From Deltaproteobacteria bacterium (GTDB taxonomy: Bacteria > Desulfobacterota > RBG-13-43-22): DNA of 35,688 bases. Below are positions 135 through 12,584 of this stretch, piece by piece. Both the position numbers and the translations under genes were made by a program. Location: assembly GCA_016219065.1 (NCBI GenBank), contig JACRCK010000273.1:1-35688 (forward strand), in the 5' to 3' direction. Numbering within the stretch: the first letter of the stretch is position 1; each line of letters starts with the position of its first letter. The notes beneath the pieces are model-generated. The model had not been told where the DNA came from and ran no database searches. It saw only the letters and a list, made by a program, of their open reading frames with translations.

Positions 135-210
135 GCGCCCATAGCTCAGTGGATAGAGCGCCGGACTACGAATCCGTAGGTCGGGTGTTCGAATCACCCT
201 GGGCGCACCA
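135..210 (+). tRNA. tRNA-Arg (anticodon ACG)
   Basis: A full cloverleaf can be drawn. The acceptor arm GCGCCCA pairs with TGGGCGC, the D-loop region is TAGCTCAGTGGATAGAGC, and the anticodon loop CTACGAA gives anticodon ACG (the wobble A normally becomes inosine, reading CGN arginine codons). The T arm contains GTTCGAATC. The 3' CCA end is encoded in the DNA (208-210). A promoter precedes it and a rho-independent terminator follows, so it is probably a single-gene transcript. Confidence 0.95.
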
Positions 211-220
211 GAAAGATCCA

Positions 221-252
221 GGAGTCAGCCGGTAAAGGCTGGCTCCTTTTTT
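221..252 (+). terminator. Rho-independent terminator after tRNA-Arg
   Basis: The arms GGAGTCAGCC and GGCTGGCTCC form a 10-bp stem with one G-T pair and a 6-nt loop (GGTAAA), followed directly by a T tract (TTTTTTATTTT). It lies 10 nt after the tRNA CCA. Confidence 0.85.
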
Positions 253-263
253 ATTTTAGAGTG

Positions 264-316
264 ATCGGATTGCAATCCTATTAATATTAATTTATAATCG
301 GATCGTAATCCTATTA
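264..316 (+). promoter_or_regulatory. Two phased palindromic repeats (candidate operator) before the ATPase gene
   Basis: The 20-nt words ATCGGATTGCAATCCTATTA (264-283) and ATCGGATCGTAATCCTATTA (297-316) are direct repeats whose starts lie 33 bp apart, about three helical turns. The core of the first, GGATTGCAATCC, is a perfect 12-bp palindrome; the second, GGATCGTAATCC, is an imperfect one. The second copy ends 17 nt before the ATG at 334, over the likely promoter and leader. This arrangement is typical of a dimeric repressor site, but which protein binds is not known. Confidence 0.5.
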
Positions 317-333
317 TTCAGGGGGACGGCGAC

Positions 334-1569
334 ATGCTGGAGGACCTTTTCAGTCTCAGCCAAAATTTTTTAACGATCTATAACCGCCAATATGTCCGAT
401 ACTTCATCAAGACCCATCCGCTTCCGAATCGTTTTTCCATCATAGGGGGCCAACGGGGCGTCGGCAAGACCACGGCCATCATCCAGTTCATATTACGATC
501 CTATCCCGGGGATCTTTTCACCCCCAAAGCCTTATACATTCAAGCGGATCATTTTCTGGTGGCCGGTCAACGGCTCTATGAAATCGCCGAGGAGTTTTAT
601 AACCTGGGCGGCGAATTGATCTGCTTCGATGAAATCCATAAATACGCCGAATGGGCCGGCGAATTAAAAAGCATCCACGATACTTTTCCTAAATTAAAAA
701 TCATCGCCTCCGGAAGTTCGGCCCTGGAGGTCTATCGGGGGAGCCACGATTTGAGCCGCAGGGCGGTTGTTTACCGGATGTTCGGGATGTCTTTGAGGGA
801 ATATATCGAACTGACCACCGGCCTGGAGTTGACGGCCTTTACTTTGGAGGAGGTGGTCAAAAATCATCCCGCCTTGGCCCTGGAAATCACCAAAGCCCTG
901 GAACCGAAAAAAAAGAAAATCCTGGCGCTCTTCCGGGAATATCTGGATTTTGGTTATTATCCCTATTTTTTTGAATATAAAGATAAACGGCTTTTTTATC
1001 TTACTCTGGAGCAGAACATCCGCACCACCCTGGAGGGCGACCTGCTGACCATCTATCCGTCCTTGAGCGGGAATACGATCAAAAAAATAAAAAAACTCCT
1101 GGCTGTGGTCGCCGCGGCGGTCCCCTTTACCCCGGACTTGAAAAAGATAAAGACCCTGCTGGATATCGGCGATGAACGGACGCTGAAGACCTATTTGAAA
1201 TACCTGGAGGACGCCGGCGTCATTCTAACGGTTTCTGCCAAGGACCGGGGCCTCCGGTCTTTGGCTAAACCGGAAAAAATCTATCTCAATAATCCCAATC
1301 TGATCCAGGCTTTGGTCGGATCTTCTTCAATGAACAAAGGAAATATCCGGGAAACATTTTTTTTGAACATGGTCCAAAATTTATACGACGTTACCTTCCC
1401 GGCTAAAGGTGATTTCCAGGTGAGCAATCGCTATATCTTTGAAGTAGGCGGCCCCAAAAAAACGTATGACCAGATCAGGGACCTGCCCGATTCCTACCTG
1501 GCGGTCGATGATCTGGAACGGGGGATAGGGAACCGGATTCCCCTCTGGCTGTTTGGATTTTTGTATTAG
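334..1569 (+). CDS. AAA-type ATPase of the AAA_14/DUF4143 family
   Basis: This is a predicted P-loop ATPase. A Walker A motif (GGQRGVGKTT, about residues 38-47) and a Walker B motif (LICFDEIHKY, about 95-103) are clear. They are followed by a sensor-like ASGSS and a LSRRAVVYRM region typical of AAA_14 proteins. The C-terminal part ends in the YIFEVGGPKKT-type segment that in DUF4143 proteins resembles a nuclease-like fold. The length (411 aa) is normal for this family. The start ATG has GGGGGA about 8 nt upstream. It stands alone, between a terminated tRNA and an exported-protein gene, behind two phased palindromes that may control it. The family is widespread, often multicopy in anaerobes and archaea, and its cellular role is not settled; links to toxin-antitoxin or mobile DNA have been suggested. 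The fold call is firm, the function unknown. Confidence 0.85.
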   Translation: MLEDLFSLSQNFLTIYNRQYVRYFIKTHPLPNRFSIIGGQRGVGKTTAIIQFILRSYPGDLFTPKALYIQADHFLVAGQRLYEIAEEFYNLGGELICFDEIHKYAEWAGELKSIHDTFPKLKIIASGSSALEVYRGSHDLSRRAVVYRMFGMSLREYIELTTGLELTAFTLEEVVKNHPALALEITKALEPKKKKILALFREYLDFGYYPYFFEYKDKRLFYLTLEQNIRTTLEGDLLTIYPSLSGNTIKKIKKLLAVVAAAVPFTPDLKKIKTLLDIGDERTLKTYLKYLEDAGVILTVSAKDRGLRSLAKPEKIYLNNPNLIQALVGSSSMNKGNIRETFFLNMVQNLYDVTFPAKGDFQVSNRYIFEVGGPKKTYDQIRDLPDSYLAVDDLERGIGNRIPLWLFGFLY

Positions 1570-4062: not shown

Positions 4063-4493
4063 CCCACGAAGACAAAGGCAGTTATGGAAAAAAACGCCCG
4101 CCGGATCTTAAATTGAACCCGGCCATCGCCGAAAGGGTAAAACAGGGGAGCGCTGAGGGAAAGATATCCTGTGCCGCGGCCTTTAAAGTCGCCAGCGAAT
4201 TAAAAGTAGCCCCGGAGGAAGTAAGCGCTACGATAGATTTACTGGAAATACCCATCATTAAGTGCCAGCTCGGACTTTTTGGATATGCTCCCGTTAAAAG
4301 AGCGGTTAAGGCAGCCGAAACCGTATCCCCAGCCCTGGAGGCGGCCATCCGGGAATCCCTGGTTAAGGGGAAATTTCCCTGTGCTTCGGCTTGGGAGATA
4401 GCGCAGAAATTCAAAATAGCTAAAATGGAAGTCTCTTCAGCCTCTGAGGCCTTGAAAATTAAAATCTCTACCTGTCAATTAGAAACTTTTTAA
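4059..4493 (+). CDS. Internally duplicated HTH-like protein with conserved cysteines
   Basis: 144 aa made of two copies of a ~60-residue unit. Copy 1 (about 20-76) contains GKISCAAAFKVASELKVAPEEV and closes with IPIIKCQLGLFGY. Copy 2 (about 88-144) contains GKFPCASAWEIAQKFKIAKMEV and closes with KISTCQLETF. Each unit reads like a small helix-turn-helix, with one Cys before the first helix and one in the CQLG/CQLE tail. Single-unit proteins ending in CQLGLFGY are, as far as I recall, common in anaerobes and archaea, but I know of no assigned function. No signal peptide is present, so it is cytoplasmic although its coupled partner is exported. Cysteine pairing could bind metal or respond to redox; that is inference. 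Confidence 0.65.
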   Translation: MTHEDKGSYGKKRPPDLKLNPAIAERVKQGSAEGKISCAAAFKVASELKVAPEEVSATIDLLEIPIIKCQLGLFGYAPVKRAVKAAETVSPALEAAIRESLVKGKFPCASAWEIAQKFKIAKMEVSSASEALKIKISTCQLETF

Positions 4494-5405: not shown

Positions 5406-7706
5406 TTATAAAAATGGTTCCAACAGGGCCTTCAGGCGGGCGCTGTTGGCCTCCAGGCTGAGGTCTTTCAACCGCTCCTTTTGAGCGGCGACGATTTGGT
5501 CCCGCCAGGGCCGATCCGAGACGACCCGGGCCAGTAATTCGGCGATCTCTTCCCAATTTTTTTGGACGAGGCCGAGGCCGGTGCCGCCCAGGGTCTCGGG
5601 AATGCCGCCGGTCAGGTAGGCCAGGACCGGGAGGCCGAAAAACATGCTTTCCATTAAGGGAACGCAGAAACCCTCATGCTCGCTGAGGCAGAGATAGGCC
5701 TGGGCGCTGGCATAGTAGGTTACCAGTTCCCGGAAGGTGGCAAATCCGGCGAAGCGCACCTGCTCGCCCAGACCCAGGTCCTCGGCCATCTGTTTCAAGG
5801 CCCGTCCGTAGTTGCGCATGCCGCTGTCCGTGCCCACCAGGATCAGGCGGCTGTCCGGGCGGTGCCTTTTTTGAAAGAGGTAGAAGACCCGGATCAGGTC
5901 CTCGATCTTTTTCTGGGGGGCGATGCGGCCCACGTGCAGAATGTTGACCTGTCCGTCGGCCAATTCCTTTTTCAGGCTTTCCTCGGGCGCCCGGTAATAA
6001 TCCTTGAAATCCAGGAAAATCGGCAGCACGCCGGTTTTTTTGAAACCGGCCTGCTCCAGGTCCCGACGGTTGTACTCGGAGACGCCCCAGCCCATTTCAA
6101 AGGCGGGGGCCAGTCGTTTCAATTCTTCGAGTCCCAGGGCGCAGCGCCGCTCCACTTCCGGATTGATACCCCGGAAAAAATGGGGCGGGGTGATGTTGTG
6201 GTAGATCAGGATCTTGCGATCCGGCAGGCGTCGGACGAACTCCGAAACCTCGGAGCCGATGGAAAAATGAAAGAGCAGCACCCGGTTGAAGCCGCTCTCC
6301 TCCCGGTATTCCCAGTAGGGCCGGGCCGCGCCGGCCAGCTTGGGATGCACATGCTGGGCGTAGATTTCCGAATCGAGTCCCCAGGACTTGAGCACCCGCT
6401 GAATGCCCAGCACGTCGTTGCCGATGGCGTCGCCGTAGCTGAAATCGGGAAGGATCTGGTGCAGGGCCGTTGGTTTTGGTGGTGCCATCATAGCCGTCTC
6501 CTGCCCCCTAGGCCGGGCCTCGCCCAGCTCCTCCCAGGTCTGCCGAAAAAGCCCGCTGAATTTTTCGCACACCCGGTCCCAGTGAAAATGATCCAACACA
6601 TATTGCCGTCCGTTGGCCGCCAGCGTCCGGCCCAGGTCCGGCCGGTCGAGGATCTCCCGCAGGCAGCCCTCAAACTCCAGATAGTCGTCAAAAAACAATC
6701 CACCCTGACTGCGGAGGCAATGTTCCACCGTGACCGGACAGTGGGCGTTGACCAGTACCGGGGACCCGCACAGCCAGGCCTCCATGATCACGATGGAAAA
6801 ACTCTCCATCACCGACGGCTGGCAGAAGAGGGCCGCACCGCCGTAGGCGTCGATCTTGTCCGGACGGGGAACGAAGCCGAAATCAAGGATATCCTCGCGC
6901 CGCTCCAGGGGGATGCGGACCGGGAGATTGCCGATCAGGACCAGCCGGAGCGGGGAAGGAAACCGTTTCTTGAACAGAGCGAAATAGTTCATCAGCAGGG
7001 GCGTATTCTTGCCCGCGTCCCGCCGTCCGGCGTACAGCAGGTAAGGATCGGTCAAGGCGTATTTCCGGCGGAACCGCTCGGGGTCCGGCGTGAGGTCCGT
7101 ATCGATCCCCTCGCCGAATAAGAAACACTGCTCCGGCTTCAGCCGGAACCGTTCCTGCCCCAGCGCCATTTCAGCCCCGGTGTGAAAGATATGTCCCCGG
7201 ACCCGCTGGTACCCTTCCTGCAAGAGGGACAGGCGGGCATAGCCCTCGTCGTGGAGACAGGGAATGATAAAGGACCGCTCCGGATGGATCCGGGCCCCGA
7301 AATAGCTGGTGCTGAACAGATAGGGGATAAAGACCAGCAGGTAGTCGGAACCGTGGCGCCGGAGGTGCTGATAGAGGCCGGGGCTGTTGATCATGTGTTC
7401 GAAAAAAAGCTTTTCTTCGTCCCGGCCGAGGGGCTCCTGCTTCATGATCCGCTCGTTCAGGCCTCCGAATAATTCGGCATTGCGCCGGGTCACGGCAAAA
7501 CGCTTGACCGGGACCCCCTCTACCCGGTAATCGCCGGGCCGGTAGTGGTTCAAAGACCAGTCGCCTTCGAAGTCCCGGACGCAGGTGGTCCAGACCTCCA
7601 CGTCGACGCCGCGCTGCCGGAGATTCTCCACCGTTCGACGACATTCGGCCTCGGCCCCGCCGGGGATGTCCTTGCCGTACCAGGGGCAAATGAAGGCGAT
7701 CCTCAT
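5406..7706 (-). CDS. Double-domain family 4 glycosyltransferase
   Basis: 766 aa, twice the usual length of a GT4 enzyme, because two GT-B transferases are fused. Domain 1 (about 1-395) starts with MRIAFICPWYGKDIPGGAEA, has the acceptor-side glycine-rich start, LLYAGRRDAGKN before the nucleotide-sugar domain, and VMESFSIVIMEAWLCGSPVL, the E-x7-E-type donor motif. Domain 2 (about 405-766) begins ALHQILPDFSYGDAIGNDV, has LHVGRIAPQKKIEDLI and the donor motif SEHEGFCVPLMESMFFGLPV. Each probably adds one sugar to a lipid-linked glycan on the cytoplasmic face of the membrane. Neighbours (Wzm, Wzt, methyltransferase, initiating transferase) place it in the same surface polysaccharide pathway. It is separated from the methyltransferase gene by 115 nt carrying a repeat. 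Confidence 0.88.
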   Translation of the reverse strand: MRIAFICPWYGKDIPGGAEAECRRTVENLRQRGVDVEVWTTCVRDFEGDWSLNHYRPGDYRVEGVPVKRFAVTRRNAELFGGLNERIMKQEPLGRDEEKLFFEHMINSPGLYQHLRRHGSDYLLVFIPYLFSTSYFGARIHPERSFIIPCLHDEGYARLSLLQEGYQRVRGHIFHTGAEMALGQERFRLKPEQCFLFGEGIDTDLTPDPERFRRKYALTDPYLLYAGRRDAGKNTPLLMNYFALFKKRFPSPLRLVLIGNLPVRIPLERREDILDFGFVPRPDKIDAYGGAALFCQPSVMESFSIVIMEAWLCGSPVLVNAHCPVTVEHCLRSQGGLFFDDYLEFEGCLREILDRPDLGRTLAANGRQYVLDHFHWDRVCEKFSGLFRQTWEELGEARPRGQETAMMAPPKPTALHQILPDFSYGDAIGNDVLGIQRVLKSWGLDSEIYAQHVHPKLAGAARPYWEYREESGFNRVLLFHFSIGSEVSEFVRRLPDRKILIYHNITPPHFFRGINPEVERRCALGLEELKRLAPAFEMGWGVSEYNRRDLEQAGFKKTGVLPIFLDFKDYYRAPEESLKKELADGQVNILHVGRIAPQKKIEDLIRVFYLFQKRHRPDSRLILVGTDSGMRNYGRALKQMAEDLGLGEQVRFAGFATFRELVTYYASAQAYLCLSEHEGFCVPLMESMFFGLPVLAYLTGGIPETLGGTGLGLVQKNWEEIAELLARVVSDRPWRDQIVAAQKERLKDLSLEANSARLKALLEPFL

Positions 7707-7740
7707 GGCGAGTCACCAAAAGTAGAAAAACGATTCGGCC

Positions 7741-7823
7741 AAATTCGAAACGTTTTTGTTTTGATCATTGGATTTTCGGACATTGATTTTTGTTTCGGAT
7801 TTCGTGCTTCGAATTTCGAATTT
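7741..7823 (-). repeat. TTCGAA-word dispersed repeat, copy A
   Basis: Read on the minus strand it begins AAATTCGAAATTCGAAGCAC and continues with CGAAATCCGAAACAAAAATC and CCGAAAATCC. It is related to the copies at 18668-18727, 34296-34363 and 34401-34481. It fills the gap after the methyltransferase gene and just reaches its stop codon. Confidence 0.65.
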
Positions 7824-9114
7824 ATTTGTACCCAACCACTGCATAATCCTGGTACCCGTACAGCAGGTCGTTCAACTGCCGGACGTCTTCGTTCAGCACC
7901 CGGACGATCTCATCTGCGTAGGACTCGTCGTCCCTTCGGACCATTTCCTTGAGGCGCATCTCCTCGGGATAGGGAGAGACGTAGAGGATGTTCACCCGGC
8001 GAAAGCCGACCATTTCCCAGAGGAAGCGGGCCGCTTCCGGGTGAATCGGGTTCTGGTGGGAGAGGTCCACGTAAAAAGCGCCGCTGAAAGTGGTCAGGCA
8101 TTGGGGGTTGACCGTTTCGGCCAGCAGGACCCCGTCGGGGGCCAGCTTGAGAAAGGCGGTCCGGACCAGCTCCCGCAGGATTTTCGGACCCAGATGCTCG
8201 ATGACCTGGGACAGGAAAATCCCGCCCAGTTCCCCGTCGGCGAGGTTCCTCAGGAACTCCAGGCCGTCGCCCTGAACGACGTCCAGCCCTTTGCCCCGCG
8301 CCCGGTCGACCATCTCCGGGTTCAGTTCCACGCCCCGGGCCGGAATACCAGCCCCTTGCAGCAGTTCCAGAAATTCCCCCCGACCGCAGCCGATATCGAG
8401 CACGGAACCGGCCTGTTGAAAGTGGGCAAGATAAGTCCGCTGTCGGGACTGGATCTCCGTTTCGGCACCCCGGTGGCGGTTTTCAAAAAGCAGGTACTCA
8501 AAGGCCCGCAGGCGGTCTGCGCCGGCTTCCGGGCCGGAGGGAGCCTCAGCGACGGTTCGGGCCGTCCGCCCGGACAGGAGTTCCTCGACGGCGATTTTCT
8601 GGGCGCGGGTTTCCTGGGTCAGATCGGCAATCCGGCCTGCGAACTCCGCCCAGCGCTCCTGGCGGGCCCGTTCCTCCTCGGGTTGCCGGGCCAGTTGTTG
8701 TTCCAGGGCGGTCACCCGGAAGCGGTAATCCGCCACGAGTTGATTCAGCAGTCTAACCGTTTCGGCGTTGAACTCCACCTGGCGTTTCAGCAACATCTGG
8801 GCATAGGGCTCGGTGATCCGCCGGAGGGCCTTTTTAAGTCCGGTGATGAGGCTGCCCAAACGTTTCCGGTGGGAGGCCAGTTCCGGCGGCCGTAGCGTGT
8901 CGAACTGGTAGTTCAATAGGGCCAGATGGTGGCGGATGTCTTCTTCGGGGGTATTGTAGCCCTCGGCCTCGATCTGCAGCACATACCGGTCGATCCGTTC
9001 CAGTTCGTCGGCGCTATATTCGCCGCTCTCTTTTTTAGCGGCAAGGCGGCGGCGGATGTCGGCCATGATCTGCTCTACATCTACGGACGGGGTGGGCGGC
9101 GTGTTGGGTTCCAT
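7822..9114 (-). CDS. SAM-dependent methyltransferase with N-terminal coiled coil
   Basis: 430 aa. The N-terminal half (about 1-215) is charged and helical (VEQIMADIRRRLAAKKESGE, later FRVTALEQQLARQPEEERAR) and probably forms a coiled coil. The C-terminal half is a class I methyltransferase: VLDIGCGRGEFLELL is motif I, GVELNPEMVDRA motif II, and VVQGDGLEFLRNL and ISQ-type SQVIEHLGP follow. Lying in an ABC-transporter polysaccharide operon directly after the Wzt gene, it resembles chain-terminating methyltransferases that cap the glycan and, through a coiled coil, set its length (the WbdD principle). That role is inference from context and architecture; I see no kinase domain. The start ATG has a GGAG-containing leader. 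Confidence 0.8.
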   Translation of the reverse strand: MEPNTPPTPSVDVEQIMADIRRRLAAKKESGEYSADELERIDRYVLQIEAEGYNTPEEDIRHHLALLNYQFDTLRPPELASHRKRLGSLITGLKKALRRITEPYAQMLLKRQVEFNAETVRLLNQLVADYRFRVTALEQQLARQPEEERARQERWAEFAGRIADLTQETRAQKIAVEELLSGRTARTVAEAPSGPEAGADRLRAFEYLLFENRHRGAETEIQSRQRTYLAHFQQAGSVLDIGCGRGEFLELLQGAGIPARGVELNPEMVDRARGKGLDVVQGDGLEFLRNLADGELGGIFLSQVIEHLGPKILRELVRTAFLKLAPDGVLLAETVNPQCLTTFSGAFYVDLSHQNPIHPEAARFLWEMVGFRRVNILYVSPYPEEMRLKEMVRRDDESYADEIVRVLNEDVRQLNDLLYGYQDYAVVGYK

Positions 9115-9138
9115 GGTTTTCCAGTTTTCTCCAGGAGG

Positions 9139-10389
9139 TTATGGCGTAAGCCAGCGATGGGGGAGCCGGCAGATGCCGTTTTCCTGGCGGGGGGACCGGA
9201 CGGCAAAGGAAAAGCAGCGGCTCTGGTAATCGTAGGCATGGCCGTCCCGGGCATGGACGGCCAGATCCAAAAAGTAGGTCCCTTCGATCAGCGGCGGCCC
9301 TTCGAGCTTGAACCCGATCCGGCCCCGGACCCCGAGATCGGGCAGGGTCACCCCGTCCACCTCGGTATTGGTGCCGTAGCAGCAGATCCCGTCGCCGTTG
9401 AATATCCCCACGCCGAAGACGACGTCGCGGGTGGCCTGATGCACCGCGTATTCCATCTCGATCCGAATATTTTCCCCGTCCTGAAAGACATGCCGTTCCT
9501 GGTCCCGGTCATCGAGGATCCGGACCCGAGTAATTTCCAGGTCCCCGTTGCCCCAGCGGTTTTTGGAAAGGAAGCCGGTCGGGGTGGGGCAGGTTCCGCC
9601 CTCGGCCGCCTGTTCGTCCAGAAAACGGGCCTCTTCCCGGCGGGCTACTTCCTGGCGGTAGGCATCGACGACCTGCCGGGGAGGACCCTGGGCCTGGAGA
9701 CAGCCGCCGTCCAGCCAGACGGCCTGTTCGCAGAACCGTTCCACGGTCGGCAGATCGTGGGTGACCAGGACGATGGTTTTTCCGGCCTTCTTGAAGGCGA
9801 TCATCTGGTCGAGGCACTTATGGGAAAAGGATTCGTCCCCCACGGCCAGGACTTCGTCGACCAGCAGGATATCAGGGTCCACGTTGACGGCTACGGAAAA
9901 GCCCAGACGGACATACATGCCCGAGGAATAGGTGCGGACCGGGGCGTCGATGAAGGATTCCAATTCGGCGAAGCGGACGATTCGGTTGAAGCGGGCTTCG
10001 ATCTCCTTCCGGCTCAGCCCCAGTACGGCCCCGTTGATAAAGACATTTTCCCGGCCGGTGAACTCCGGATGAAAACCGGCGCCCAGCTCGATCAGGGAGG
10101 CGACCCGTCCGTCCAGCCGGATGGTCCCCGTGTCGGGTTTGTAGATGCCGGCCAGCAGCTTGAGCAGGGTGCTCTTGCCCGAGCCGTTGCGGCCGATCAC
10201 TCCCAGGCTGATCCCCCGGGGGACTTCCAGGTCGAGATGGGAAAAGACTTCGATCCGTTCGCCGTGGGATTTGGCCAGCAGGGACATGGGCTTCAACAGC
10301 CAGGTCTTGATCGTGGTATGGTTCCCGCGCAACAGGAGCTTCTTGAAGGATTTGGAGACGTCGTGCAGACTGATCGCTGAGGTGGCCAT
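9139..10389 (-). CDS. wzt: Polysaccharide ABC transporter ATP-binding protein (Wzt type)
   Basis: 416 aa. The N-terminal ABC domain (about 1-250) shows Walker A GRNGSGKST, signature YSSGM, Walker B ILLVDEVLAVGD and the H-loop THD. The C-terminal ~150 residues (from about NGDLEITRVRILDDRDQERH) are a beta-rich Wzt_C domain, which in E. coli O8/O9a-type systems binds the finished, capped glycan before export. With the Wzm permease it exports lipid-linked polysaccharide across the inner membrane. The presence of the C-domain suggests end-modified glycan, in agreement with the adjacent methyltransferase. It starts 3 nt after the wzm stop, so the two are one operon. Confidence 0.92.
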   Translation of the reverse strand: MATSAISLHDVSKSFKKLLLRGNHTTIKTWLLKPMSLLAKSHGERIEVFSHLDLEVPRGISLGVIGRNGSGKSTLLKLLAGIYKPDTGTIRLDGRVASLIELGAGFHPEFTGRENVFINGAVLGLSRKEIEARFNRIVRFAELESFIDAPVRTYSSGMYVRLGFSVAVNVDPDILLVDEVLAVGDESFSHKCLDQMIAFKKAGKTIVLVTHDLPTVERFCEQAVWLDGGCLQAQGPPRQVVDAYRQEVARREEARFLDEQAAEGGTCPTPTGFLSKNRWGNGDLEITRVRILDDRDQERHVFQDGENIRIEMEYAVHQATRDVVFGVGIFNGDGICCYGTNTEVDGVTLPDLGVRGRIGFKLEGPPLIEGTYFLDLAVHARDGHAYDYQSRCFSFAVRSPRQENGICRLPHRWLTP

Positions 10390-10392
10390 GGT

Positions 10393-11181
10393 TCAGATCT
10401 TTTCCGCCAGGGTTTCCTTGTAATGTTCGAACAGGGTGATCCCCAGACCCAGGACGACGAGGGCCAGGATAAAAAAGGTGCCTAAGTACAGCAGGTCCGG
10501 GCTCCGCCGATAAAAGAAAATGTCCTGGTAACTCAGGGTGATCAGGGTGGCCGGATTTAAAAGGACCCAGCGGCGGAAGGCCTGCGGCACCTGGGCCAGG
10601 GGATACAGAATGGGGGTCAGGAAAAACCAGAGCGTCACCAGGTTGGAAAGGATGTGCTGGATGTCGCGCAGAAAGACGTTCAAGGTGGCCAGTGCCAGCG
10701 ACAGGCCGGCGATAAAGATCAGGTGGACGGCCACGACCAGCGGCAGCCAGACCAGGGCTGAACCGGGACTAAGGCCCATGGCGGTCAGAAAAATCAGGAG
10801 GACGGGCAGACTCAATAGATAGTTCAGGAGATTGGCCCCGACCTTGACCAAGGGGAGGATCTGCCCCGGGAAGAGCACTTTGGTGATCAGGCTGCCGCCC
10901 GAGGCGATGGCCGTGGTTCCTTCCAACAGGGAAGAGGAAAACCAGATCCAGGGCAGCAGGCCGGTGAACATAAAGCCGGCGTAATGCTCCATTTGAATGC
11001 GGAAGTAAACGCTGAAGACCAGGGCGTAGACCGCCAGCAGCATCAGGGGATTCAGAAAGGTCCAGAGAAATCCCAGGACGGAGCCCCGGTAACGGGCCTT
11101 TAATTCGCGCAGGACCAGGCTGGATACCAATCCCCGGTAACGGTACAATTCCTGAAAATGAGGGCCGATGGTGGATGACAT
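10393..11181 (-). CDS. wzm: Polysaccharide ABC transporter permease (Wzm type)
   Basis: An ABC-2 type permease with six hydrophobic helices and the typical entry LVLRELKARYRGSVLGFLW and NPLMLLAVYALVF, and the conserved region NVFLRDIQHILSNLVTLWFF LTPILYP. I prefer the ATG at 11181 (262 aa, MSSTIGPHFQELYRYRGL), 5 nt after the stop of the upstream gene, over the TTG at 11220 that would overlap that gene by 34 nt; the normal N-terminus of this family starts near FQELYRYR. Forms the membrane channel with Wzt for export of a surface polysaccharide. Confidence 0.9.
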   Translation of the reverse strand: MSSTIGPHFQELYRYRGLVSSLVLRELKARYRGSVLGFLWTFLNPLMLLAVYALVFSVYFRIQMEHYAGFMFTGLLPWIWFSSSLLEGTTAIASGGSLITKVLFPGQILPLVKVGANLLNYLLSLPVLLIFLTAMGLSPGSALVWLPLVVAVHLIFIAGLSLALATLNVFLRDIQHILSNLVTLWFFLTPILYPLAQVPQAFRRWVLLNPATLITLSYQDIFFYRRSPDLLYLGTFFILALVVLGLGITLFEHYKETLAEKI

Positions 11182-11186
11182 GGCGG

Positions 11187-12584
11187 TCAGCAGGCTTCCC
11201 GGCTGAAAAACCCCTTCCAAAGGGTCTTGATCAATATTTTGAGGTCAAACAGCAGGGACCAATTTTCAATATAATACAGATCGCATTCGATCCGCTTTTC
11301 GAGCGAAGTGTTCCCCCGCCAGCCGTTGACCTGGGCCCAACCGGTCATGCCGGCCTTCATCTTATGGCGCAGCATGTAATGGGGGATCTTGTCCTTGAAA
11401 CTGTGGATCAGTTCGGGCCGTTCCGGGCGTGGACCGACCAGGCTCATCTCGCCCTTGAGGACGTTGACCAGTTGCGGCAGTTCGTCCAGGCTGAAACGGC
11501 GGAGAAAACGGCCGACGGGGGTCCGGCGGGGGTCTTCCTTCCGGGCCCAGACCGGGCCGGTCTGTTCTTCGGCGTTGACCACCATGGACCGGAATTTCCA
11601 CATTTCAAATACCCGGCCGTCCAGCCCCATGCGGGTCTGGCGGAAAATCACCGGTCCGGGCGAGGTCAGTTTGATGGCCAGGGCGATGAGGGCCAGCACC
11701 GGCGCCAGGATGATCAGGCAGGCGGCGGCCAGCAGCGTGTCGGCCGCCCCTTTCAAAAACCGGTTCCAACCCACCAGGGGGGACTCCCGCAGGTTGATAA
11801 AGGGGAGCCCTTCGAATTCCTCCAGGCCGCCGCGCAGGGTGATCAGGCGGTACAAGTCGGGTACGATCTTGATGTCCACCAGTTCGTCCCGAATTAAATT
11901 CAGCAGGTCCTCCAGTTTTTGCTGGACGGTCAGGGGCATGGCGAAAATAACCAGGTTGATCTGCTGTTCGCGAATGATCCGGTCGAGGTCTTCATACAAG
12001 CCCTGGACTTCCAACCCTTGGATCCGGGTGCCCACCTTCTGGGGGTTGCGGGTAAGAAAGCCGGTCACGGTGAGTCCTAGTTCCGGATGATCAACGATGG
12101 TCCGGGCCACGTGTTGGGCCAACTCCCGGGCGCCCACGATCAGGACCCGTTCCAGGGCGAAATAACGGCGCTGCAGGGCGATATAATATTTTTTCAAGAA
12201 GAGCCGGGTCAAGGTCAGGGACAGGTAACTCAAGAGGCCGAAATAGAGAAAGACCAGCCGGGAATAATCGGTCCGTTTGAAGAAAAAGGTGACGAAGACC
12301 AGGATCATCAGGCTCACCAGGGTGGCTTTGAACAGGGCGACCCCTTCCTGGGTCCGGTTGAAGAAGCGGGAGTAAATGCCGTTCAAGTAAAAAGTACCGG
12401 CCCAGATCAGCAGGACAAAGGGAAAGAGGACCAGGTATTCGGAGAGGGGCGGAATCCCCTTGGTGACGGGGATGAGCGGTGCGTAAAAACGCAGGTAAAA
12501 CGCGCCGAACCAGCAGGGCGTGAGGACCAGGAGGTCGTTCAGAAATAAAAAGGAGCGAAATACCTGGATGCGTTTATTGAACAT
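11187..12584 (-). CDS. Polyprenyl-phosphate sugar-1-phosphate transferase (WbaP/WcaJ type)
   Basis: 465 aa, the normal length for the family. Several hydrophobic segments in residues 1-130 are followed by a CoA-binding-like domain (VLIVGARELAQHVARTI, about 145-270). A membrane re-entrant helix near 285 precedes the catalytic domain with FRQTRMGLDGRVFEMWKFRSM, SLDELPQLVNVLKGEMSLVGPRP and MTGWAQVNGWRG. It starts glycan synthesis by moving a sugar-phosphate from a UDP-sugar to undecaprenyl phosphate. It heads the glycan part of the operon, 66 nt after dksA. The exact sugar cannot be read from sequence. Confidence 0.92.
   Translation of the reverse strand: MFNKRIQVFRSFLFLNDLLVLTPCWFGAFYLRFYAPLIPVTKGIPPLSEYLVLFPFVLLIWAGTFYLNGIYSRFFNRTQEGVALFKATLVSLMILVFVTFFFKRTDYSRLVFLYFGLLSYLSLTLTRLFLKKYYIALQRRYFALERVLIVGARELAQHVARTIVDHPELGLTVTGFLTRNPQKVGTRIQGLEVQGLYEDLDRIIREQQINLVIFAMPLTVQQKLEDLLNLIRDELVDIKIVPDLYRLITLRGGLEEFEGLPFINLRESPLVGWNRFLKGAADTLLAAACLIILAPVLALIALAIKLTSPGPVIFRQTRMGLDGRVFEMWKFRSMVVNAEEQTGPVWARKEDPRRTPVGRFLRRFSLDELPQLVNVLKGEMSLVGPRPERPELIHSFKDKIPHYMLRHKMKAGMTGWAQVNGWRGNTSLEKRIECDLYYIENWSLLFDLKILIKTLWKGFFSREAC

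Follow-up and report, generated by a model that had tools for sequence, protein, structure and literature searches.

Paired 33-bp-spaced words on the promoter of a solitary PDC-S01-type ATPase gene: a site specific to one gene clade and its likely role in autorepression

Here, we describe two near-identical palindromic words that overlap the promoter of a solitary AAA_14 plus DUF4143-type ATPase gene in a contig of a Deltaproteobacteria bacterium (the window, i.e., the whole stretch of 35,688 nucleotides analysed). The layout, its conservation, its specificity for one gene clade and the gene's status as an orphan are shown. We consider it likely that the words are operators of a clade-specific autorepression exerted by the ATPase itself. 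The binder, the repression and the releasing signal are inferred, and there are no binding data.

The two words comprise 20 bp each, agree in 18 of 20 positions and lie 33 bp apart, start to start (Table 1). The core of word 1, GGATTGCAATCC, is a perfect palindrome, that of word 2, GGATCGTAATCC, an imperfect one. An earlier note had claimed two near-identical words at exactly 33 bp and a perfect first core. Both claims held, while the promoter straddled by the words was absent from that note. TTGCAA-17-TATAAT is the best promoter match of the region and near consensus (10 of 12 positions). Word 1 lies over the -35 hexamer, and word 2 runs from the end of the -10 hexamer across the expected start site to just 5' of the ribosome-binding-like site, with the ATG of the ATPase gene following directly. 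The overlap of the putative operators with promoter elements is thus shown. With up to three mismatches allowed, a degenerate form of the word is present in the window at the operator pair only (a third match is word 1 on the opposite strand), and 0.02 matches per window are expected in shuffled sequence. A homologue profile built without the window assigns 36.4 bits to the operator site and -4.9 to the best position elsewhere in the window. The short core GGATTGCAATCC alone was rejected as the signal, as it occurs at 14 places in its own genome with at most one mismatch, which is near random (approximately 11, an estimate).

Table 1. Features of the window around the operator pair and the ATPase gene.
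Feature	Position	Strand	Remarks
tRNA-Arg (acg)	135..210	+	neighbour, outside the unit
Terminator-like hairpin	220..247	+	closes upstream tRNA unit
Putative operator 1 (word 1), ATCGGATTGCAATCCTATTA	264..283	+	palindromic core 267-278; over -35; position and word conserved in homologues
-35 hexamer TTGCAA	270..275	+	TTG columns conserved among homologues
-10 hexamer TATAAT	293..298	+	17 bp past -35; conserved among homologues
Putative operator 2 (word 2), ATCGGATCGTAATCCTATTA	297..316	+	core 300-311; end of -10 across expected start site
Ribosome-binding-like AGGGGGA	320..326	+	from sequence
ATPase gene, AAA_14 + DUF4143-type, 411 aa, PADLOC PDC-S01	334..1569	+	profile matches
AAA+ domain, residues 33-160	430..813	+	Walker A GQRGVGKT, Walker B CFDE
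Predicted winged helix, residues 246-318	1069..1287	+	recognition helix 281-293; AlphaFold
C-terminal PD-(D/E)XK-like domain, residues 335-411	1336..1566	+	D360, E370 kept; usual lysine = G372

We retrieved 80 homologues of essentially full length (48-69% identity), mostly from metagenome-assembled genomes labelled Nitrospirae, several deltaproteobacterial groups, Campylobacterota, Elusimicrobia, Bacteroidetes, Aminicenantes, Riflebacteria, Fibrobacteres and others. Their upstream regions exhibit the same layout, TAGTATTGCATTACTA..TATAAT..TAGTNTTNNAATACTA, at equal distance from the start codon, and the clade consensus AATAGTATTGCATTACTAATAA...TATAATAGTATT.aAATACTAT is located approximately 65 nt 5' of the ATG. 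The spacing is fixed at 33 bp across the homologues, and the sequence between the words is free to vary. A lag of 33 is the most frequent best self-repeat distance (45 out of 80 upstream regions). In leave-one-out scoring, 76 out of 77 homologous promoters exceed all of their own shuffles. A search for the paired word in front of other family members, which the earlier note had named as a check, was hence passed for nearly all of the clade.

A sequence-only model made from 38 of the clade's promoters recovers 37 of 42 held-out loci (E <= 0.01). Every match is at the ATPase promoter, and the remainder of the 260 kb gives none. When whole genomes were scanned, the model matched 37 out of 40, mostly at one place each; the extra matches are a second full-length copy of the ATPase, a DUF4143 gene that is only distantly related (25% identity) and has a 33-bp repeat of its own, a relic in which the operators are followed by roughly the first dozen codons, and a single weak match within coding sequence. 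Among 297 genomes of the window's phylum, matches occur in two only, both holding this gene clade: the window's own genome and one where the gene is broken by a deletion and the operators are kept. Ten further genomes of the phylum contain sister ATPases only (34-42% identical) and no model match; several of these sisters have other palindromes, and one has a 33-bp repeat of another word. The site is specific to this gene clade and is carried along with the gene. A random occurrence of the word across the genome would have refuted the earlier reading, and no such scattering was found.

Relics with intact operators are located at L120 (G008:C43:28500-32500) and L009 (G004:C180). They come in two types, the operators with only about the first dozen codons, or the operators with an internally deleted ATPase gene. 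At three loci (L021, L022 and L046), the ATPase is preceded by at least three operator-like words and not by just two. L021 and L022 are 99.8% identical over 3.8 kb, though labelled Elusimicrobia and Deltaproteobacteria; a recent transfer or a binning error may account for this.

The suggestion of a general operator for DUF4143 genes held only in part. There is no single operator for all of them; the word differs by clade, and the layout alone is family-wide. In the window's genome, other DUF4143 genes have their own promoter repeats: two copies of ACCGATATAACGGT spaced by 33 bp, and pairs of AATTATTACCGG and of ATAGAAAATTGTC, each spaced by 32 bp. When 68 distantly related DUF4143 genes from the phylum were compared with 234 control promoters, their repeat score at lag 32 was 7.5 standard errors higher, and strong repeats at lags 31-34 are present in 12 of the 68 versus 3 of the 234 controls (p = 2e-6). 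The repeats of 19 Bacteroidota DUF4143 genes peak at 32 and 22 bp. A stricter layout test, demanding either a palindrome of 12/14 pairs or a strong repeat with a spacing of 21-22 or 32-33 bp, was positive for 28% (own phylum) and 53% (Bacteroidota) of distant DUF4143 genes versus 2% of 264 controls, with 4 out of 115 positives among AT-rich controls; 47-72% of the distant DUF4143 genes show neither repeat nor palindrome by this test. Start codons in the distant sets were set by rule, which could only blur the signal. Another clade, with the word TTGAGTAAATTTACTCAA, is common to the window's phylum and Bacteroidota (42-60% protein identity), and its recognition helix differs from that of the window clade. 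Different words in the same layout, in paralogues and in other clades, are expected if each protein reads its own site. The reading of 33 bp as three helical turns has to be amended: the spacing follows the promoter geometry (-35 to start site), and other clades have 32 and 22 bp.

Within Bacteroidota, the 22-bp group (L232, L237, L247, L249) and the 32-bp group (L240, L242, L244, L245) use unrelated words; here, the phasing of 22 or 32 bp amounts to two or three helical turns.

The window protein matches the PADLOC profile PDC-S01 with E 2.3e-27, and all 76 aligned homologues match PDC-S01 models. AAA_14 is matched with 81.8 bits (cut-off 27), and the Walker residues are invariant in the homologues. 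The DUF4143 profile reaches 22 bits (E 1.5e-4), which is below the Pfam cut-off of 28.1; position and fold order are the same. The AlphaFold model (pLDDT 90.5) starts with an AAA+ domain; a helical stretch and then a winged helix follow, and the C-terminal domain is PD-(D/E)XK-like. Domain names are our reading of predicted secondary structure and motifs. A DNA-binding-type domain is thus a prediction that rests on the modelled winged helix only. Within the recognition helix region, D280, R282, T283, K285 and Y287 are invariant across the 76 homologues; this helix might serve another task, e.g., target binding. The position of the ExK lysine is an invariant glycine (G372) in the window clade versus lysine in 43 of 44 distant members, so that the intact PD-(D/E)XK residue set is not met and nuclease activity is doubtful in this clade. 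An invariant K376 is located four residues past G372 (window 1405-1461, residues 358-376). No solved structure resembles the whole protein, and by sequence there is no meaningful relative among them; the best fold matches, with low TM-scores, are clamp loaders and Orc1/Cdc6 bound to DNA.

How might the pair function? Word 1 lies upstream of the expected transcript, and the pair therefore acts as DNA. As the -35 and the start site are both covered, repression is predicted, although activation cannot be excluded from sequence alone. Any binder has to accompany the gene from phylum to phylum and cannot be the same for different paralogues. Even the most frequent neighbour family is present at no more than 7 of the 80 loci, which leaves the winged helix of the ATPase as the sole candidate seen; a linked regulator was ruled out on the same ground, and the description of this DUF4143-type ATPase as an orphan held. 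Operator divergence tracks protein divergence (rho about 0.6) and spacer divergence does not. The fit to the AAA domain is, however, just as close as that to the winged helix, and domain-specific covariation is thus not decisive.

In the explanation we favour, a dimeric regulator would use the words as its operators, with one site on the -35, the other on the start site and the two facing roughly the same side of the helix. This regulator would most likely be the ATPase itself, binding via its winged-helix domain. Given enough ATPase, possibly in a particular nucleotide or oligomeric state, both sites would be occupied and RNA polymerase blocked, so that a potentially harmful defence-type protein is held low. 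Once binding is lost, e.g., on engaging phage or other nucleic acid, the promoter would be freed. Several inferences of the earlier note are adopted here. Words on one helix face are kept in the weaker form given above; a dimeric regulator on paired sites is retained with cooperativity inferred only; self-control by the ATPase is supported as the best reading and is still inference.

Where two loci are 78-97% identical over the gene (L010-L089), their DNA homology typically sets in at -66, where operator 1 begins, and breaks off with the final base of the stop codon; these are medians over 156 pairs, which are not independent. Gene and operators hence travel together as a 1.3-kb unit. Its sharp bounds may reflect a defined mobile element, or selection that retains only promoter and gene. 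No clean empty site was found among the compared loci. Integration targeted to tRNAs was rejected, as tRNAs are present at only 4 of 60 homologue loci and the window has no second copy of the 3' end of the tRNA-Arg. Phages or plasmids as carriers were likewise rejected: one phage record (36% identity) and 31 plasmids were found, all below 60%, and no relative in IMG/VR. 31 viral contigs match a loose pattern, without the ATPase and with weak scores, and were treated as chance.

In a Sulfuricurvum tRNA-Glu/Lys hotspot (L066 about 4214-4301, compared with L291), only 2 nt separate the end of the ATPase gene from the middle of a broken helix-turn-helix gene, which appears whole in a relative. The left side of this hotspot is not clean, and no target duplication is present.

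Control by a global or stress regulator of the host, encoded elsewhere and binding the pair, is an alternative. Many defence genes are indeed under separate regulators such as BrxR (PMC9122601), and the sites themselves name no binder. Against this, there is approximately one site per genome in 40 genomes and none where the clade is absent (297 genomes), the same word recurs in many phyla that have few regulators in common, paralogues within one genome have different words, and no regulator is linked to the loci. We consider such a regulator unlikely, and a global one was rejected on the site count together with the distinct paralogue words. An action of the words in RNA, as a leader hairpin or attenuator, is suggested by their near-palindromic nature, but is very unlikely given that word 1 sits on the -35, outside the transcript, and that the 33-bp spacing is held with free intervening sequence. 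A chance repeat in an AT-rich leader has nothing but the small size of the feature in its favour. It is refuted by the expectation in shuffled sequence, by the conservation of the words and not of flanks and spacer in homologues, and by the recurrence of the spacing with unrelated words in other clades, and is all but excluded.

The pair could also be mainly the recognised end of a mobile unit that extends from the start of operator 1 through the stop codon, in which case its effect on the promoter, if any, would be secondary. The homology edges, the joining of an ATPase to a nuclease-like domain, the relics that retain operators and the right edge at one hotspot, 2 nt past the stop and inside another gene, speak for this. 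On the other hand, the right end shows no inverted or similar sequence, neither a target duplication nor a clean empty site was found, the words lie exactly on promoter elements in the clade, other clades keep the layout with unrelated words, the catalytic lysine normally found is absent from this clade, and the 156 pairs are not independent. We judge this explanation improbable. A bolder reading combines it with ours: operator pair and ATPase would be a mobile unit complete in itself, bounded on the left by the operator; one protein would repress its own promoter and sense invading nucleic acid by leaving the site, and the same site would be the recognised end when the unit moves. Self-repression, sensing and mobility jointly are unlikely; if true, defence, self-control and mobility would be joined in one gene.

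Autorepression by the ATPase, the reading we prefer, has partial counterparts in known systems. PDC-S01, a phage-defence candidate of PADLOC and an ATPase fused to a PD-(D/E)XK domain, is reported to be the fourth most common defence class in prokaryotes, with about 39,000 detected, and validation is pending for most PDC candidates (PMC12988326). The window clade exhibits the same type of fusion (AAA_14 + DUF4143), but lacks the usual ExK lysine and stays under the DUF4143 cut-off of Pfam. Regulation of DUF4143, COG1373 or PDC-S01 is not reported in the open-access literature searched, which agrees with the earlier note's statement that none is known. AbiEi-type winged-helix antitoxins autoregulate at inverted repeats (cited in PMC9122601), and here, too, a defence-locus protein with a winged helix is proposed to shut off its own promoter from repeated sites; AbiEi, however, is the separate antitoxin of a two-gene pair, whereas one ATPase would be both effector candidate and repressor. 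BrxR-type WYL repressors likewise act on a defence locus from repeats near the promoter (PMC9122601). The CapW-type WYL repressor is counted with BrxR in this respect. Both are separate WYL-domain regulators serving neighbouring systems and are not homologous to the ATPase. Orc1/Cdc6 initiators share the order of AAA+ and DNA-binding winged helix, and 2qby is among the best fold matches, but the TM-score is just 0.32, the ATPase has an extra C-terminal nuclease-like domain, and its sites are at a promoter and not at an origin. This kind of switch is known; a clade-specific, gene-borne switch across a solitary ATPase family is probably new, with the repression itself inferred.

As far as our searches show, the operator pair is the first regulatory clue for PDC-S01. 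It offers a candidate DNA ligand, with binding inferred, and a simple reporter assay for the protein; whatever lifts the repression would be a route to the activator of the system. Tests of PDC-S01 from foreign promoters may mislead, given a switch on its own promoter.

Two further features of the window were observed. A near-perfect palindrome of 27 nt, AAAATTTTTTCGA-N-TCGAAAAAATTTT, is located 3' of the ATPase gene (1831-1857). A surface-polysaccharide cluster unrelated to the operator pair lies on the minus strand (5406-12584) and contains a glycosyltransferase, a methyltransferase, a Wzt-type ABC ATPase and a sugar transferase.
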